Origin: Pseudomonas bubulae | Lineage (GTDB): Bacteria; Pseudomonadota; Gammaproteobacteria; Pseudomonadales; Pseudomonadaceae | DNA: 64,000 bases | Assembly (NCBI RefSeq): GCF_037023725.1 | Contig: NZ_CP146077.1 | Location: 1,959,001 to 2,023,000, forward strand | Direction: 5' to 3' | Shown here: one piece after another, positions 5,259-12,238 of the stretch | Position numbering within the stretch: position 1 is the stretch's first letter | Layout: each line of letters begins with the position of its first letter | The notes under the pieces: generated by a model | Told to the model about the DNA's origin: nothing | Seen by the model: only the letters and a program-made list of their open reading frames with translations | Databases searched by the model: none | Position numbers and translations under genes: made by a program

Positions 5259-5463
5259 GATGATTCTCCTAATCAGGTCAGTTGCGATGAGCGCAAGGCC
5301 GATCACGGGCGGCCAAACACGCGCCGATGAGTTTTTACTCTTTGCGGCGCAGGGTCAGGATCATAGCACCGGGGTGACGGCATAACCACGCGACAACTGT
5401 GTGGGATAGACGTTTCAGCACATGTGGGACTATTTTTTTTTGCCTGTGGGAACAGGGTTATGC

Positions 5464-6066
5464 TCAGCCCGAAACAATTAACTGCAGCGCCACTGCATAC
5501 ATCATCACCGCTACCAGCAAGTCCAGGATGCGCCAGGTGTTTGGCCGTGCCAGCCACGGTGCAAGCCAGGCAGCACCCAGCGCCAGGGTGAAAAACCACA
5601 TCAGCGAAGCACTGGCCGCGCCCACCACATAAGCGCCGGGCACGCTTTGCTGGGCGCCAAGGGAACCGATCAGCAACACTGTATCAAGGTAAACGTGGGG
5701 GTTGAGCAGGGTGACGGCCAGTGCGCTGAGCATCACTGCCTTGAGCGAGCGGGCAGTCTGGCTGGCAGAATGCTCAAGGCTCGATGTGGAAAACGCCCGG
5801 CGCAGCGCCTGGGTGCCGTACCAGAGTAAGAACACCGCCCCGCCCCAGCGCGCAACACTGAGTAATAGCGGGTTTTGCGCCAGAAGGGTCGCCAGGCCAA
5901 ACACCCCGGCCGCCACCAGCAGGGCATCGCACACTACGCAAAATGCCGCCACGGGCAGGTGGTGTTCACGGCGCAGGCTTTGCGCCAGCACAAAGGCATT
6001 CTGGGTGCCGATGGCCATAATCAGGCCGAACGCGACCAACAGGCCATTAAGGTAGCTTTGCCACAT
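5464..6066 (-). CDS. argO: LysE/ArgO-type amino acid exporter
   Basis: The 200-residue protein is strongly hydrophobic, with about six membrane segments. It carries the LysE-family opening in which GLIMAIGTQNAFVLAQSL follows the first helix. ArgO exports arginine and, in some relatives, lysine or toxic analogues such as canavanine. The divergent neighbour is an ArgP-like LysR regulator, which is the activator of argO in E. coli, so the pair is a self-consistent regulatory unit. Confidence 0.9.
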   Translation of the reverse strand: MWQSYLNGLLVAFGLIMAIGTQNAFVLAQSLRREHHLPVAAFCVVCDALLVAAGVFGLATLLAQNPLLLSVARWGGAVFLLWYGTQALRRAFSTSSLEHSASQTARSLKAVMLSALAVTLLNPHVYLDTVLLIGSLGAQQSVPGAYVVGAASASLMWFFTLALGAAWLAPWLARPNTWRILDLLVAVMMYAVALQLIVSG

Positions 6067-6169
6067 AAGGATTACTCGTTGTACTGCAGGCGGGGTTGCT
6101 GCTGGCTATTCTCCTGCCCTTGGATGTATAAGAAAAACCAATATTGCTGATCGCTCATTAGGAAAACTG

Positions 6170-7066
6170 ATGTTCGACTATAAGTTGCTCTCGGCCCTGG
6201 CCGCCGTTGTGGAACAGGCCGGTTTTGAACGGGCGGCGCAGGTGCTTGGGCTGTCCCAATCGGCCATCTCCCAACGCATCAAATTGCTTGAAGCCCGTAT
6301 CGGCCAGCCGGTGCTGGTACGCGCCACGCCGCCAAGCCCGACCGAAATCGGCCGGCGCCTGCTCAACCATGTACAGCAAGTGCGTTTGCTGGAGCGTGAC
6401 TTGCAAAGTGCGGTGCCGGCGCTGGACGATGAAGGTTTGCCCGAGCGCCTGCGCATCGCCTTGAATGCCGACAGCCTGGCCACCTGGTGGGCGCCGGCCG
6501 TGGGGGATTTTTGCGCCGAGCAGCACCTGTTGCTGGACCTTGTGGTTGAGGATCAGACCGTTGGCCTCAAGCGCATGCGCGCCGGTGAAGTGGCTGCCTG
6601 CCTGTGTGCCAGTGAACGGCCGGTCGCCGGGGCCCGCAGTGTGCTGCTGGGCGCCATGCGTTACCGCGCTCTGGCCAGCCCGGCGTTTATCGCCCGGCAT
6701 TTTCCGGGTGGCGTCAGCGCCGCGCAGTTGCCCAAGACCCCTGCGCTGGTGTTCGGCCCGGATGATTTTCTGCAACATCGTTACCTGGCGGCACTGGGGG
6801 TGGACGGCGGCTTCGAGCACCATTTGTGCCCATCCTCAGAAGGCTTCATTCGTTTGACCGAGGCCGGTCTTGGGTGGGGGCTGGTGCCTGAGCTGCAAGT
6901 GCGCGAACAATTGGAAAATGGCAGCCTGGTGGAGCTTTTGCCAGATAAGCCCATCGACGTGCCATTGTACTGGCATCATTGGCGCAATGGCGGACAACTG
7001 CTGGGGCAACTGACCGAACATTTATCGCGTTCGGCTAGTGCCTTTGGCCTGATAACCGGCGTTTAA
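6170..7066 (+). CDS. argP: LysR-family regulator ArgP (IciA)
   Basis: The protein has 298 residues. The N-terminal winged helix (GFERAAQVLGLSQSAISQRI) and the LysR effector-binding domain closely match ArgP. ArgP senses arginine and lysine and activates argO. The gene is transcribed away from argO with a 103-base shared control region, the usual layout for a LysR regulator and its target. I could not pick out a convincing binding site by eye. Confidence 0.92.
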   Translation: MFDYKLLSALAAVVEQAGFERAAQVLGLSQSAISQRIKLLEARIGQPVLVRATPPSPTEIGRRLLNHVQQVRLLERDLQSAVPALDDEGLPERLRIALNADSLATWWAPAVGDFCAEQHLLLDLVVEDQTVGLKRMRAGEVAACLCASERPVAGARSVLLGAMRYRALASPAFIARHFPGGVSAAQLPKTPALVFGPDDFLQHRYLAALGVDGGFEHHLCPSSEGFIRLTEAGLGWGLVPELQVREQLENGSLVELLPDKPIDVPLYWHHWRNGGQLLGQLTEHLSRSASAFGLITGV

Positions 7067-7104
7067 AGAGCAAGCAGCACGAATTACAGCATTTGGAGTG
7101 ATTG

Positions 7105-8103
7105 ATGAAGATTCTGGTCACCGGCGCAAGCGGCTTCATTGGCGGACGCTTTGCGCGTTTTGCCCTGGAGCAGGGCTTTGACGTACGGGTCAGCGGGCGT
7201 CGGGCCGAAGGTGTCGAACATCTGGTGCGACGCGGCGCTGAATTTATCCCGGGTGATTTGACCGATGGCCTGCTGGTGCGCGACTTGTGTGTGGATGTCG
7301 ATGCGGTGGTGCATTGTGCGGGGCACGTGGGTGCCTGGGGGCGTTATCAGGACTTCCACCGCGATAACGTGCTGGTGACTGAAAACGTAGTTGAAGCCTG
7401 TCTGAAACAGCGGGTGCGGCGCCTGGTGCATTTGTCATCGGCAGCGTTGTACTTCGATGGTCGCAACCACACCGACCTGACCGAAGAACAGTTGCCCAAG
7501 CGCTTCAGGCACCCTTTTGCCGCCACTAAAAACCTGGCGGAGCAGAAGGTGTTTGGTGCCCAGGAGTTTGGCCTTGAAGTGATTGCCCTGCGCCCGCGTT
7601 TTGTGACGGGGGCAGGGGACATGAGCCTCTTCCCGCGATTGATCAAACAGCAGCGCAAAGGTCGTCTGGCCATTGTTGGCAACGGTTTGAACAAGGTCGA
7701 TTTCACCAGTATGCAAAACCTCAACGAAGCGCTGATGAGCAGCTTGTTGAGCAGTGCAGCGGCGTTGGGCAGGGCCTACAACATCAGTAATGGCACGCCG
7801 ATACCGTATTGGGATGTGGTCAATTATGTGATGCGCCAGATGAACGTGCCCCAAGTGACCCGTTATCGTGGTTACGCCACGGCCTACAGCCGTGGCGCGC
7901 TTAACGAAGCTGCCTGCAAGTTATGGCCGGGGCAGCCCGAACCGTCACTCTCGCGTTTGGGGGTGCAGATCATGGATAAAGACTTTACCCTCGACATCAG
8001 CCGCGCCCGGCACTACCTCGACTACGATCCCAAGGTGAGTCTGTGGTCCGCGCTTGATGAATTCTGTGGTTGGTGGAAAGCTCAGGAATCCCCTTACCGC
8101 TAA
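7105..8103 (+). CDS. NAD-dependent epimerase/dehydratase (extended SDR, 3-beta-HSD-like)
   Basis: The protein has 332 residues. I prefer ATG at 7105 over TTG at 7102 because GGAG at 7095-7098 is then correctly spaced. The Rossmann motif TGASGFIGG opens the protein, and a substrate-domain C terminus with a conserved Trp-rich end follows. The Tyr-x-x-x-Lys pair is not in the classical form (HPFAATKNLAE occupies that place), so the activity is uncertain. The substrate is unknown. The next gene starts 29 bases on and may be co-transcribed. Confidence 0.85.
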   Translation: MKILVTGASGFIGGRFARFALEQGFDVRVSGRRAEGVEHLVRRGAEFIPGDLTDGLLVRDLCVDVDAVVHCAGHVGAWGRYQDFHRDNVLVTENVVEACLKQRVRRLVHLSSAALYFDGRNHTDLTEEQLPKRFRHPFAATKNLAEQKVFGAQEFGLEVIALRPRFVTGAGDMSLFPRLIKQQRKGRLAIVGNGLNKVDFTSMQNLNEALMSSLLSSAAALGRAYNISNGTPIPYWDVVNYVMRQMNVPQVTRYRGYATAYSRGALNEAACKLWPGQPEPSLSRLGVQIMDKDFTLDISRARHYLDYDPKVSLWSALDEFCGWWKAQESPYR

Positions 8104-8132
8104 CCACTTGCCGCCATTTTTAAAGGTTTACG

Positions 8133-8954
8133 ATGCGTAACGATGCCCGCGACGACTTTGACAATGTGCCGACCCTTCGCGCCGATACCGATGACCATGA
8201 CGAACCGGCGTCCAGCTTTGGTGCCCGTGAGCGCACTACGGTGTATTCGCGCAATACCCCGGTGATCAAGGTCAAGGGTCCGAGTACCGGGCCTTTGTGG
8301 GCCATGATCTGCGCCTTGCTGGTGGCCGTTGGCGGGCTGGGCTGGTGGAGCTTCCAGCAGATTTCGCTGATGGAGCAGCAGTTGGTGGCCACCCAGGAGA
8401 GCTTTGCCCGTATCAGCGAAGAGGCAGCCGGGCGCCTGCAGGCCATATCCGGCAAGGTGGTTGCCAGTGAATCGACAATCAACAATGGCAGCGAAGCCTT
8501 GAAGTTGCAGATCAAGCAGCTAGAAGAACAGCTGCTTGAGCAGAGCAAGCGTCAGCAAGGGCTGGTGGCGGGGCAGCAGGGGGATCTGGATCAGCGCTTT
8601 GAGCAAATCAATGCCGCGATGTTGATGCAAGTGACTGCCCAGAAAGAAAGCCAGGCCAGGCTCGAAGCCGATATCAAGAGTCTGGGTACTGAACTGGCCA
8701 CGCTCAAGGCAGGTGTCGCCCAACAGGCCACGGATGTGGCGGCCTTGAAGAAACAGGGCAACCCGGGCGCGGCGGTGGAGCGCCTGGAGCAGGATATGAT
8801 CGTGCTCAAAAGCGAACTTGAGAACCGTCCGGCACCAGCTCAAGGTGCCAATGCTGCCGAGTTCGATGTGTTCCGTGCCCAGATGACGCGCAACATCAAC
8901 ACCCTGCAAAGCCAGATGCAGAACCTGCAGAAGCAGATCAGCGCTCGACCTTGA
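8133..8954 (+). CDS. Single-pass membrane protein with long coiled coil, unknown function
   Basis: The 273-residue protein has a polar N-terminal tail of about 50 residues, one membrane helix (PLWAMICALLVAVGGLGWW, about 53-71), then a long heptad-like region rich in Gln, Glu, Ala and Leu to the end. That predicts a bitopic inner-membrane protein with a periplasmic coiled coil. Such proteins are sometimes labelled chromosome-segregation ATPase by chance similarity, but no Walker motif is present. It probably forms a unit with the preceding SDR gene. I do not recognise a function. Confidence 0.85.
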   Translation: MRNDARDDFDNVPTLRADTDDHDEPASSFGARERTTVYSRNTPVIKVKGPSTGPLWAMICALLVAVGGLGWWSFQQISLMEQQLVATQESFARISEEAAGRLQAISGKVVASESTINNGSEALKLQIKQLEEQLLEQSKRQQGLVAGQQGDLDQRFEQINAAMLMQVTAQKESQARLEADIKSLGTELATLKAGVAQQATDVAALKKQGNPGAAVERLEQDMIVLKSELENRPAPAQGANAAEFDVFRAQMTRNINTLQSQMQNLQKQISARP

Positions 8955-8971
8955 GCCTGTGCTGAGGGTTT

Positions 8972-9006
8972 GCCCCTCACCCCGGCCCTCTCCCGCAGGG
9001 AGAGGG
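8972..9006. repeat. CCCTCTCCC palindromic intergenic element
   Basis: CCCTCTCCC (8986-8994) and GGGAGAGGG (8998-9006) form a perfect 9-bp stem with a three-base loop. The upstream half, GCCCCTCACCCCGGCCCT, recurs with two changes at 59681-59698. The element could act as a weak terminator for the preceding gene, but there is no T run. Confidence 0.7.
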
Positions 9007-9046
9007 GGCTGATGTGTGGCGTCAGTCATACCTGCATGTGCCTGTC

Positions 9047-9093
9047 GGCGGATTTCCGCTTATTGCAACGCTGAAAATCAGCGGATTCCCGCC
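9047..9093 (+). promoter_or_regulatory. Paired palindromes upstream of kgtP, candidate activator sites
   Basis: Two copies of a 14-base near-palindrome are present: GGCGGATTTCCGCT (9047-9060) and AGCGGATTCCCGCC (9080-9093), 33 bases centre to centre, about three helical turns. Closely matching pairs lie upstream of dctA. The position, 43 bases before a -24/-12 promoter, is right for binding by a sigma-54 activator. The CGG-N4-CCG core resembles the pattern described for AauR of the same activator class. Binding by the 25312-26646 regulator is inference. Confidence 0.65.
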
Positions 9094-9135
9094 TACCCAT
9101 CTCCCGCAAGCCATGTAAACCGTGGTCTCAAGCGT

Positions 9136-9151
9136 TGGCACAAGTTCTGCT
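9136..9151 (+). promoter_or_regulatory. Sigma-54 (-24/-12) promoter of kgtP
   Basis: TGGCACA (9136-9142), four bases, then CTGC (9147-9150) place GG and GC exactly 12 bases apart as RpoN promoters require. The -24 half is a near-perfect match and the -12 half has C for the first T. Transcription would start near 9162, leaving a leader of about 50 bases. Confidence 0.75.
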
Positions 9152-9213
9152 ATAGCCCAGCAAGCTCGCGTTTTGACGCGCTATAAAAAAACAATGAAAG
9201 AAGGATCCATTCA

Positions 9214-10536
9214 ATGGATAACTCCAGCACCCTGCCTGCCGGGGCCGTGTCTGCGGCGCCTAAAGAAAAGACCACCTCCAGCCGTATCAAATCGATTTTC
9301 AGCGGTTCCGTCGGCAATATGGTCGAGTGGTACGACTGGTACGTTTACGCCGCGTTTTCGCTGTACTTCGCCAAGGCCTTCTTCCCCAAGGGCGACACCA
9401 CCGCACAACTGCTCAACACCGCCGCGATCTTCGCCGTGGGCTTTTTGATGCGCCCGATCGGCGGCTGGCTAATGGGCCTGTACGCGGATCGCAAAGGCCG
9501 CAAGGCCGCGCTGATGGCTTCGGTCCTGTTGATGTGCTTCGGTTCGCTGGTAATTGCCCTGTCGCCGGGATACGAAACCATCGGCGTGTGGGCGCCTGTC
9601 CTGCTGGTCTTCGCCCGCTTGCTGCAGGGCCTGTCGGTGGGTGGCGAATACGGTACCTCGGCCACTTACCTGAGTGAAATGGCGACCAAGGAACGTCGCG
9701 GTTTCTTCTCGAGCTTCCAGTATGTAACCCTGATCTCGGGGCAGCTTATCGCTTTGGGCGTGCTGATCGTGCTGCAACAGACCCTCACCGAAGAGCAACT
9801 GTACAGCTGGGGCTGGCGCGTACCGTTCGTGATCGGCGCCCTGTGTGCCGTGGTCGCGCTGTATCTGCGTCGAGGCATGGAAGAAACCGAGTCGTTCAAA
9901 AAAACCAGGGTCAAGCCTAAAGAAAGCGCCATGCGCACCCTGCTGCGCCACCCCAAAGAGCTGATGACCGTAGTTGGCCTGACCATGGGCGGCACGCTGG
10001 CGTTCTACACCTACACCACCTATATGCAGAAGTACCTGGTGAACACGGTGGGCATGAGCATCTCGGATTCCACCACCATCTCGGCCGCCACGCTGTTTCT
10101 GTTCATGTGCATTCAGCCGCTGGTGGGCGCGCTTTCCGACAAGATCGGCCGTCGTCCGATCCTGATCGCCTTCGGTGTACTGGGTACCCTGTTTACCGTA
10201 CCGATCCTGACCACTCTGCACACCATTACCACCTGGTGGGGTGCGTTCTTCCTGATCATGGCCGCGCTGATTATTGTCAGTGGCTACACCTCGATCAACG
10301 CCGTGGTGAAAGCGGAACTGTTTCCCACGGAAATTCGCGCACTGGGTGTTGGTTTGCCTTACGCACTGACCGTGTCGATCTTCGGCGGTACAGCTGAATA
10401 TATCGCTCTGTGGTTCAAGAGTGCAGGTATGGAAACCGGTTACTACTGGTACGTGACAGCTTGTATTGCCTGCTCGCTGGCGGTGTACGCCACCATGAAA
10501 GACACCCGCAAGCACTCGCGCATCGAGACTGACTGA
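9214..10536 (+). CDS. kgtP: Alpha-ketoglutarate/dicarboxylate permease (MFS, MHS family)
   Basis: The protein has 440 residues, the normal length for the metabolite:H+ symporter family, with twelve predicted membrane helices. It shares many identical stretches with E. coli KgtP, such as FLMRPIGGWL, MCFGSLVIA and QGLSVGGEYGTSATY. The MFS loop motif is GLYADRKGRK. It should import alpha-ketoglutarate with protons across the inner membrane; P. aeruginosa PcaT/PA5530 is the closest named relative I recall. ATG at 9214 follows AAGGA. A sigma-54 promoter and paired operator-like palindromes precede it. Confidence 0.9.
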   Translation: MDNSSTLPAGAVSAAPKEKTTSSRIKSIFSGSVGNMVEWYDWYVYAAFSLYFAKAFFPKGDTTAQLLNTAAIFAVGFLMRPIGGWLMGLYADRKGRKAALMASVLLMCFGSLVIALSPGYETIGVWAPVLLVFARLLQGLSVGGEYGTSATYLSEMATKERRGFFSSFQYVTLISGQLIALGVLIVLQQTLTEEQLYSWGWRVPFVIGALCAVVALYLRRGMEETESFKKTRVKPKESAMRTLLRHPKELMTVVGLTMGGTLAFYTYTTYMQKYLVNTVGMSISDSTTISAATLFLFMCIQPLVGALSDKIGRRPILIAFGVLGTLFTVPILTTLHTITTWWGAFFLIMAALIIVSGYTSINAVVKAELFPTEIRALGVGLPYALTVSIFGGTAEYIALWFKSAGMETGYYWYVTACIACSLAVYATMKDTRKHSRIETD

Positions 10537-11374: not shown

Positions 11375-11753
11375 TCGGTCAAAGCTCCAGTTTTCGAGGG
11401 GTGCAAAGCCGTTTTGATATCGGCTTTTTTGCCGGCTGAAGACTGGTGCTCGCGCAGCAAAAAATGGGTAATGGACTGATGAAAGCCTGTCTGTGAGTGC
11501 GATTTATTTGAATTAATAGTCAGTTAATTCTGTTAGCCCACTATCAATCTCAGCAACACCTCTATGGCCGGCAGAACATGTGTGCCGCCCCACAGGGAGC
11601 CGGACAGCGTCAGAAGCCTGGCTTTGCGTCGGCGTACACATCGAATTAATCGATTCTTTAGCGCTATTTTTTGCGCTTTTTAATCGAATTAATCGGCGTA
11701 GTCTTAAACCCATACCCACTGAACACCCCAAACACGAAACAAGGAGCTTTATC
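11375..11753. other. 379-bp intergenic region with 12-bp direct repeats
   Basis: No gene is seen. The right part is AT-rich. TCGAATTAATCG occurs at 11641-11652 and again at 11684-11695. Between them AGCGC (11660-11664) and GCGCT (11673-11677) can pair, followed by a short T run. This lies just before the secreted repeat protein and probably contains its promoter and a control site; no sigma-70 boxes are clear. Confidence 0.5.
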
Positions 11754-12050
11754 ATGAAAACCAAACTTATCCTCGCTGCTGCTTTTTCTGCCCTGGCCTT
11801 CAACGCTTTTGCCGCCGATGGTTTCGATAAAACCCATTCGTCGAGCTTTGCTGAAGATGGCTACAGCCGTACAGGTTCTGCTGCAGTTGCTGCTGACGGT
11901 TATGACCGCACAGGTTCGGCTACGTTTGCAGAGGACGGCTACGACAAAACCGGCTCGGCCATCTTTGCAGAAGACGGTTTCAGCCGTACCAAATCGGACA
12001 CCTTCGCTGCTGATGGCTACGATCGCACTCACGGCGCCCATTTCAGCTAA
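11754..12050 (+). CDS. Secreted protein of six tandem 13-residue repeats, unknown function
   Basis: The 98-residue protein starts at ATG 11754 after AAGGAG. Residues 1-20 are a clean Sec signal ending AFA before ADG. The whole mature part is six units of about 13 residues following A-[AE]-D-G-[YF]-[DS]-[RK]-T-[GHK]-[SG]-x-x-[FV], for example AEDGYDKTGSAIF and AADGYDRTGSATF. Asp, Gly, aromatic, basic and Thr positions are almost fixed, while the third and second last positions vary. The regular pattern suggests a beta-solenoid, a surface- or metal-binding peptide, or a self-assembling polymer; none of these is shown. I recall similar repetitive small proteins in pseudomonads but no assigned function. 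It is monocistronic, with its own terminator. Confidence 0.85.
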   Translation: MKTKLILAAAFSALAFNAFAADGFDKTHSSSFAEDGYSRTGSAAVAADGYDRTGSATFAEDGYDKTGSAIFAEDGFSRTKSDTFAADGYDRTHGAHFS

Positions 12051-12069
12051 CACCTGAACCAGGCACTCC

Positions 12070-12090
12070 AGCCCGGCCTTGGCCGGGCTT
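12070..12090 (+). terminator. Terminator after the repeat-protein gene
   Basis: AGCCCGGCC (12070-12078) and GGCCGGGCT (12081-12089) form a strong GC stem 20 bases after the stop codon. A T run follows eight bases later (TTTTT at 12096-12100). Confidence 0.75.
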
Positions 12091-12238
12091 AGTCGTTTTT
12101 GGGGGTAAGACAGTGGAGATCCAATCCTTAGCAGCCTCGTTCCTACGGCAGTTGCTACAAAACCTCGCAAGCTTTTGTAATCCCGGCAAATGCCTTGCAC
12201 TATAGGCCCTCTATCTCAGCCGTTTGCGGACACTTCCC

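Follow-up and report, generated by a model that had tools for sequence, protein, structure and literature searches.

Several described groups of exported or glycine-rich proteins carry short repeats rich in aspartate and glycine, among them proteins with RTX nonapeptide repeats, proteins with curli-type repeats, and the hydrophilins, which are defined by a glycine content above 6% and a mean hydrophilicity greater than 1. The exported PtrA (PA2808), whose expression is linked to copper, has an N-terminal domain (NF041599) in which a signal peptide directly precedes an AE-G-G-x-D-R-[TL]-type motif. At the level of transcription, the targets of LysR-type activators are laid out with an ATC-N9-GAT / T-N11-A box near -65 and a weak, activator-dependent -35 element. 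Here we describe a gene in the window (the whole stretch of 64,000 nucleotides that was analyzed) that recalls each of these systems in part.

As judged from its Sec signal, the 98-residue gene product is an exported protein (Table 1). The signal peptide comprises 20 residues, with the AFA|AD cleavage site assigned by eye, and the 13-residue units start at residues 20, 33, 46, 59, 72, and 85. With this assignment the alanine of unit 1 is the final residue of the signal peptide, and a single serine follows unit 6. The lag-13 self-identity of the protein is 0.56, a value reached in 0 of 100,000 composition shuffles (shuffle maximum 0.27). ORF analysis, unit parsing, and the lag-13 shuffles confirm the preliminary description of a secreted protein consisting of a signal peptide and six 13-residue repeats. 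The description of the gene as a self-contained unit with its own ribosome site and terminator is also borne out, with the caveat that the hairpin scan gave two sites against a shuffle mean of 1.2 and on its own is weak evidence for a terminator. A 178-residue ORF overlaps the repeat gene on the opposite strand (11664-12200, minus strand), and a similar ORF occurs at seven loci; such ORFs are expected from the common repeats of the sense strand, and we take this one to be spurious.

Table 1. Features of the repeat gene and its upstream region in the window.
Feature	Position	Strand	Basis or remark
Operator-like box ATC-N9-GAT (ATCGAATTAATCGAT), LysR-type spacing	11640..11654	+	Some 64 bp upstream of the inferred transcription start; promoter alignment
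Subfamily-specific conserved block TTTGCGCTTTTTAATC	11670..11685	+	Pattern search, alignment
GCG and inferred -10 hexamer TAGTCT	11696..11704	+	Exactly 44 bp from the GAT of the box to the hexamer
Shine-Dalgarno AAGGAG	11741..11746	+	Read directly
Gene for 98-residue exported repeat protein	11754..12050	+	ORF and homologue searches
Signal peptide MKTKLILAAAFSALAFNAFA, then ADGFDKT...	11754..11813	+	Sequence; AlphaFold2 helix 3-24
Six 13-residue units A-[AE]-D-G-[YF]-[DS]-[RK]-T-x-[SG]-x-x-[FV]	11811..12044	+	Unit parsing, lag-13 test
Terminator-like hairpin, 8 bp stem (7 G-C pairs), T-rich tail	12070..12089	+	Hairpin scan

The resemblance of the protein to the described short-repeat groups is limited. 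It differs from RTX proteins in lacking the GGxGxDxUx register: no tandem nonapeptides of this form and no HemolysinCabind match were found in it. Unlike curli-type repeats it has no predicted strands in an AlphaFold2 monomer model, and unlike hydrophilins it is too low in hydrophilicity, since its glycine content of 12.8% exceeds the hydrophilin threshold but its hydropathy of -0.76 falls short. Pfam-A contained nothing above its gathering cut-off for the window protein (the best entry, Phage_zn_bind_6, scored 16.2 bits against 27), NCBIfam gave no match above cut-off, and solved structures gave none at E <= 10. Ten paralogues searched against Pfam likewise exceeded no cut-off.

Homologues are numerous, and they keep the same conserved positions, contrary to the absence of such homologues that the preliminary description set as its refutation. 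A database protein search returned 164 proteins at E <= 1e-3; among the best 120 of these, every name that bears an organism is Pseudomonas except for one compost metagenome. A sequence search of 57 genomes placed the family in 28 of the 36 from the window's genus and 0 of the 21 others, and a profile search of the same genomes in 32 of 36 and 0 of 21, respectively. Among the genomes searched, the superfamily to which the family belongs was thus found only in Pseudomonas. The 109 loci that have the promoter element described below, or lie near it, yielded 98 complete proteins, 92 of them distinct, with 3–11 units each. Across these 92 proteins the conserved unit positions are Ala1 (99%), Asp3 (0.99), Gly4 (1.00), Asp6 (0.93), Arg/His/Lys7 (0.98), and Thr8 (0.93); position 5 is Tyr or Phe in 90% of units and position 13 is Phe, Val, Leu, Ile, or Ala. 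Their 7,962 mature residues include no cysteine, no tryptophan, and one methionine, and 91 of the 92 mature proteins carry a net negative charge.

The repeat gene is real and under strong purifying selection. The window lies in a genome of 5.26 Mb, and the nearest named record is Pseudomonas bubulae (L032, 99% identity), followed by two P. fragi genomes (L033, 98%; L034, 96%). Comparison of the mature part with L033 and L034 gave pS values of 0.31 and 0.37, respectively, with a pN of 0.02 and a dN/dS of 0.04 for each; the L032 comparison contains one synonymous and one non-synonymous change, too few for dN/dS. For distant relatives of equal length, in which repeat units need not be one-to-one orthologous, synonymous change is near saturation and dN/dS is 0.05 to 0.14 where computable. 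Between repeats of the window gene, same-residue pairs use different codons in 67 of 108 comparisons. These values agree with earlier claims that the DNA repeats differ in their codons and that selection acts on the residues rather than the array being a product of simple slippage. DNA-level identity between units of one gene ranges from 0.61 to 0.96 among family proteins from promoter-element loci, and thus some species have homogenized arrays and other species old ones. The window array is among the old ones.

The DNA upstream of the repeat gene, previously described as unusual, is conserved across relatives far beyond what is expected of a spacer. Within 140 bp upstream, 75 of the 80 loci have the block TTTGCGCTTTTTAATC with at most three mismatches; the exceptions are five loci, all at locus B (see below). 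Used as a pattern, it is found in 70 of 149 genus genomes, with one site each but two in G108, and the reversed control gave 0. All 30 loci picked by this pattern, the window's own included, have an ORF encoding a signal peptide plus repeats 75–86 bp downstream, although a contig end truncates two of the ORFs and masked sequence interrupts another two. An alignment of 98 distinct promoters has ATC-N9-GAT at a single position in 96 of them; the row for L085 is a chance match to another part of that locus. Eleven promoter clusters also agree at bases outside the search pattern (A22 0.96, T32 0.91, T37 1.0, T38 0.91, and T40 0.97). Some loci in the alignment and cluster counts were retrieved through protein similarity, and these counts are not protein-independent, whereas the 30-locus tests of this pattern and of the pattern described next are independent.

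In a paralogue elsewhere in the window's own genome (L113), which lacks the TTTGCGCTTTTTAATC core, ATC-N9-GAT is followed after exactly 44 bp by TAGCAT. The same skeleton lies upstream of 14 of 29 parsed paralogue ORFs, 13 of them at exactly 44 bp. The 15 ORFs without it include one cut by a contig end, four of the VASDGADHVGAGA type with other upstream DNA, and several that depart, as judged by eye, by one base. Searched in DNA alone, the bare skeleton ATC-N9-GAT-N41-GnGTA[AG]CAT is present in 85 of 99 genus genomes (reversed control, 0), and 29 of 30 sites examined have a superfamily ORF 41–50 bp downstream, L213 being the exception. Outside the genus it was found in 14 of 285 genomes, with unlike interiors, against 3 in the control, and none of the four outside-genus loci examined has a family ORF. 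A slightly relaxed form matches the window's own genome at exactly two sites, both upstream of family genes. Together these searches show that the predicted promoter skeleton, ATC-N9-GAT, 44 bp, TA[GA]NNT, is close to exclusive to the superfamily and common to most of the subfamilies examined. The earlier proposal of an undescribed system therefore stands in part: the family is apparently undescribed, but the gene does not stand alone and belongs to a multi-gene superfamily that has a common promoter skeleton.

Two other readings of the upstream region were rejected. The distance from the block to the ATG (75–86 bp) varies in all three phases, which argues that the region is not coding. The promoter is nevertheless open in frame with the gene (11580-11753), both here and in related genomes, and several database entries (e.g. 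P0001, P0002, and P0008) start within it, their first 18–80 residues being translated promoter. An RNA element was likewise rejected, as Rfam gave only a sub-threshold mir-192 match (11464-11548, E 0.38).

The layout of the promoter resembles that of LysR-activated genes. The dyad stands at one place in nearly all aligned promoters, the window box is centered about 64 bp before a transcription start inferred from sequence, and we found no sigma-70-like site and no good -35 element in the window promoter. The 44 bp spacing between the box and the -10 hexamer, kept almost without exception, is a difference from LysR-type promoters. Unlike LysR-type systems, the repeat gene also has no LysR gene as a conserved neighbor. 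With three LysR proteins of the window as queries, a scan of 104 loci gave LysR-like ORFs in only 22, and not one is a recurring neighbor at both chromosomal positions occupied by the family; we therefore rejected a local LysR gene as the regulator. The simplest reading of the skeleton would be one activator acting on one ancestral promoter. Co-regulation of the paralogues is a strong inference and, in our judgment, highly probable, and the whole looks like a dedicated LysR-type regulon.

The survey of chromosomal context covered 80 loci kept out of 129, with neighbors named by Pfam. At 50 of the 80 (locus A, the arrangement seen in the window) the gene adjoins an MFS transporter gene and/or a flavin-reductase-like gene. 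The other 30 (locus B) have an acetyl-CoA-synthetase-like ORF upstream (30/30) and an ORF for a ribonucleotide-reductase small chain downstream (29/30). The conserved neighbors indicate that the position of the gene is fixed, and they give no clear functional link. The window's upstream neighbor is a DUF347 membrane-protein gene, found in 23 of the 80 loci. Between it and the promoter lies a near-perfect palindrome, GAATTAA-tagtcag-TTAATTC (11510-11530), which is possibly an operator of the DUF347 gene.

Related units, among them VAEGGSDRLIENR, VAQDGSDRTMNR, VASDGADHVGAGA, and VAEDGADRVGANR, occur in exported proteins encoded by eighteen further regions. The units of this superfamily are approximately 12–16 residues long and share the core [AE]-x-[DG]-G-x-[DE]-[RKH]-[TLV]. 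Several Pseudomonas genomes carry a set of these genes, with up to 18 profile-matched stretches per genome, several of which fall inside one gene. Some of the genes form tandem arrays. In L179, five tandem genes (5430-9906) differ in unit number and have near-identical upstream DNA, each with the skeleton; this array looks like the result of recent duplication of promoter and gene. The VASDGADHVGAGA-type subfamily (L186, L187, L188, and L191) has at least 12 units, a C-terminal tail GSDxVAS...SYSDQFN, and other upstream DNA, and it probably has a different regulation or role.

We tentatively explain the family as a group of co-induced, disordered, multivalent envelope polypeptides under one LysR-type activator. 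In this scheme the activator, acting through the box near -64 in the absence of a good -35, would turn the paralogues on together. Going solely by the names of genes in published transcriptomes, aromatic or electrophilic compounds are a possible inducing cue. Whether periplasmic or extracellular, the repeat chains would be disordered and would serve as multivalent binders or buffers in envelope stress. Each unit would be a weak binding module, with the number of units setting the capacity through dose or avidity. The disorder of the mature chain is predicted with moderate confidence. AlphaFold2, run as a monomer with a 38-row alignment, gave a mean pLDDT of 46.7 and a pTM of 0.20, with 76 of 98 residues below 50. 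The only helix spans residues 3-24, corresponding to the signal peptide, there is no strand, and the mature chain has a pLDDT of 40-46. A charge-hydropathy test was borderline, placing 55 of the 92 family proteins on the disordered side.

The same model bears on a structural role, in which the units would form a β-solenoid, a cross-β fiber, or a surface coat and the repeat number would set its length. The regular 13-residue period, the fixed aromatic and hydrophobic positions 5 and 13, and the homogenization of arrays in many species speak for such an assembly. However, the aromatic residue is not kept superfamily-wide, position 5 being Ser or Ala in several subfamilies, no solved structure was matched, and the model contains no secondary structure past the signal-peptide helix. 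The regular fold suggested in the preliminary description is therefore not supported, fibers lying beyond what a monomer model addresses. We regard a structural role as unlikely.

A periplasmic sponge for metals (or protons or other cations), comparable to small metal-induced periplasmic proteins, is suggested by the nearly universal negative charge and by a link to PtrA through the AE-G-G-x-D-R motif. In whole-protein score, part of the superfamily, with units such as VAEGGSDRLIENR, does exceed the NF041599 cut-off of 31 bits: L179 scores 71.7 bits and L182 76.8 bits, while the other members tested remain below it. PtrA-type proteins, like the superfamily, are multi-copy, with four of five matches in this genome above the cut-off. 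These four belong to a cluster of PtrA-type exported proteins (L204 and L205, approximately C2:1423000-1442500) that is likely part of a metal island. In PtrA-type proteins, however, the motif occurs once and is followed by other sequence, whereas the window protein repeats a different unit. NF041599 gave no match to the window protein at E <= 1, nor to its mature part alone at E <= 5. With no cysteine and a single methionine, the family is without classical copper or silver ligands, metal-resistance genes are absent from among the neighbors, and, unlike the window gene, the PtrA cluster was not found to have the promoter skeleton. Considering this balance, a metal sponge seems improbable.

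The repeats could instead be a multi-copy peptide precursor, cut at [FV]-A|[AE]-D-G to release 13-mers serving as signals or bioactive peptides. The junction between units, TFA|ADG, resembles the end of the signal peptide, AFA|ADG, the alanine at position 1 is almost invariant, and homogenized arrays of variable copy number would suit such a role. Yet the alanine may be conserved simply as part of the unit, and residue -3 is Lys or Arg in approximately 27% of units, which is poor for signal peptidase I. In addition, the neighbors at the 80 loci include no recurring protease, transporter, or modifying enzyme, and we consider a precursor of this kind distinctly unlikely. A RiPP precursor was rejected for the same lack of a recurring modifying enzyme, the only likeness being a weak YhhA match (E 2).

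A further reading retains the single unlinked LysR-type regulator and the disordered exported chains but views them as a genus-wide polymer regulon, in which each strain has its own set of homogenized paralogues. Repeated duplication of the promoter-plus-repeat-gene unit would have made these sets, and unit sequence, copy number, and gene number would differ fast between species. Sets diverging this fast could act as a strain-specific code rather than a generic buffer, one that would serve recognition, decoy, or interference with a competitor, phage, or host compound; we think this quite doubtful. Finally, lineage-specific filler kept by chance, or a mis-called ORF, might account for the rapid change in repeat number and the lack of a Pfam or NCBIfam family, but is highly improbable given the low dN/dS and a promoter kept across the genus.

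Existing database labels offer little guidance. Close homologues among the matches listed (P0001, P0066, and others) are labeled 'heme utilization protein', and a sister subfamily is labeled 'phage infection protein' (P0129, P0170, P0191, and others, among the best 120 of 528 matches, with 8,000 candidates scored). Sequence supports neither name, and no heme-uptake gene was found among the Pfam-named neighbors. In our judgment both labels were passed on by automatic annotation and should not be trusted at face value.

The labels nevertheless lead to published expression data. P. fluorescens In5 facing Rhizoctonia raises a 'phage infection protein' 32-fold, along with azoreductases, a glutathionyl-hydroquinone reductase, and pirin-type enzymes; small hypothetical proteins are also up, several in number and almost all of predicted secretion (PMC5557065). 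In P. fluorescens 2P24, a regulon includes a 'phage infection protein' that bears a Sec signal (PMC8490769). Membership of the In5 and 2P24 proteins in the family is guessed from the names alone. In P. fragi 1793, the 'heme utilization protein' PAA32411.1 decreases in biofilm maturation (PMC7921472). By accession number PAA32411.1 seems to adjoin an L-lactate dehydrogenase gene; none was seen at the window locus, and we therefore do not claim it as the window gene.

A text search of the literature found no paper printing the repeat unit, and this is apparently an undescribed Pseudomonas superfamily with a highly specific common predicted promoter. Exported short-repeat proteins under a common regulator are known in kind. 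The skeleton predicts a regulon from DNA alone and makes its regulator findable. Should its members prove to be induced together, the family would account for a class of 'small secreted hypothetical proteins' strongly induced in transcriptomes, such as those of In5 with Rhizoctonia (PMC5557065).

The window's own genome also has a locus-B paralogue (L112, 6430-6693 and 6832-7092), at which the promoter skeleton was not found, directly after a DUF2790 gene. A second ORF that resembles DUF2790 by eye lies near the PtrA cluster (L148).
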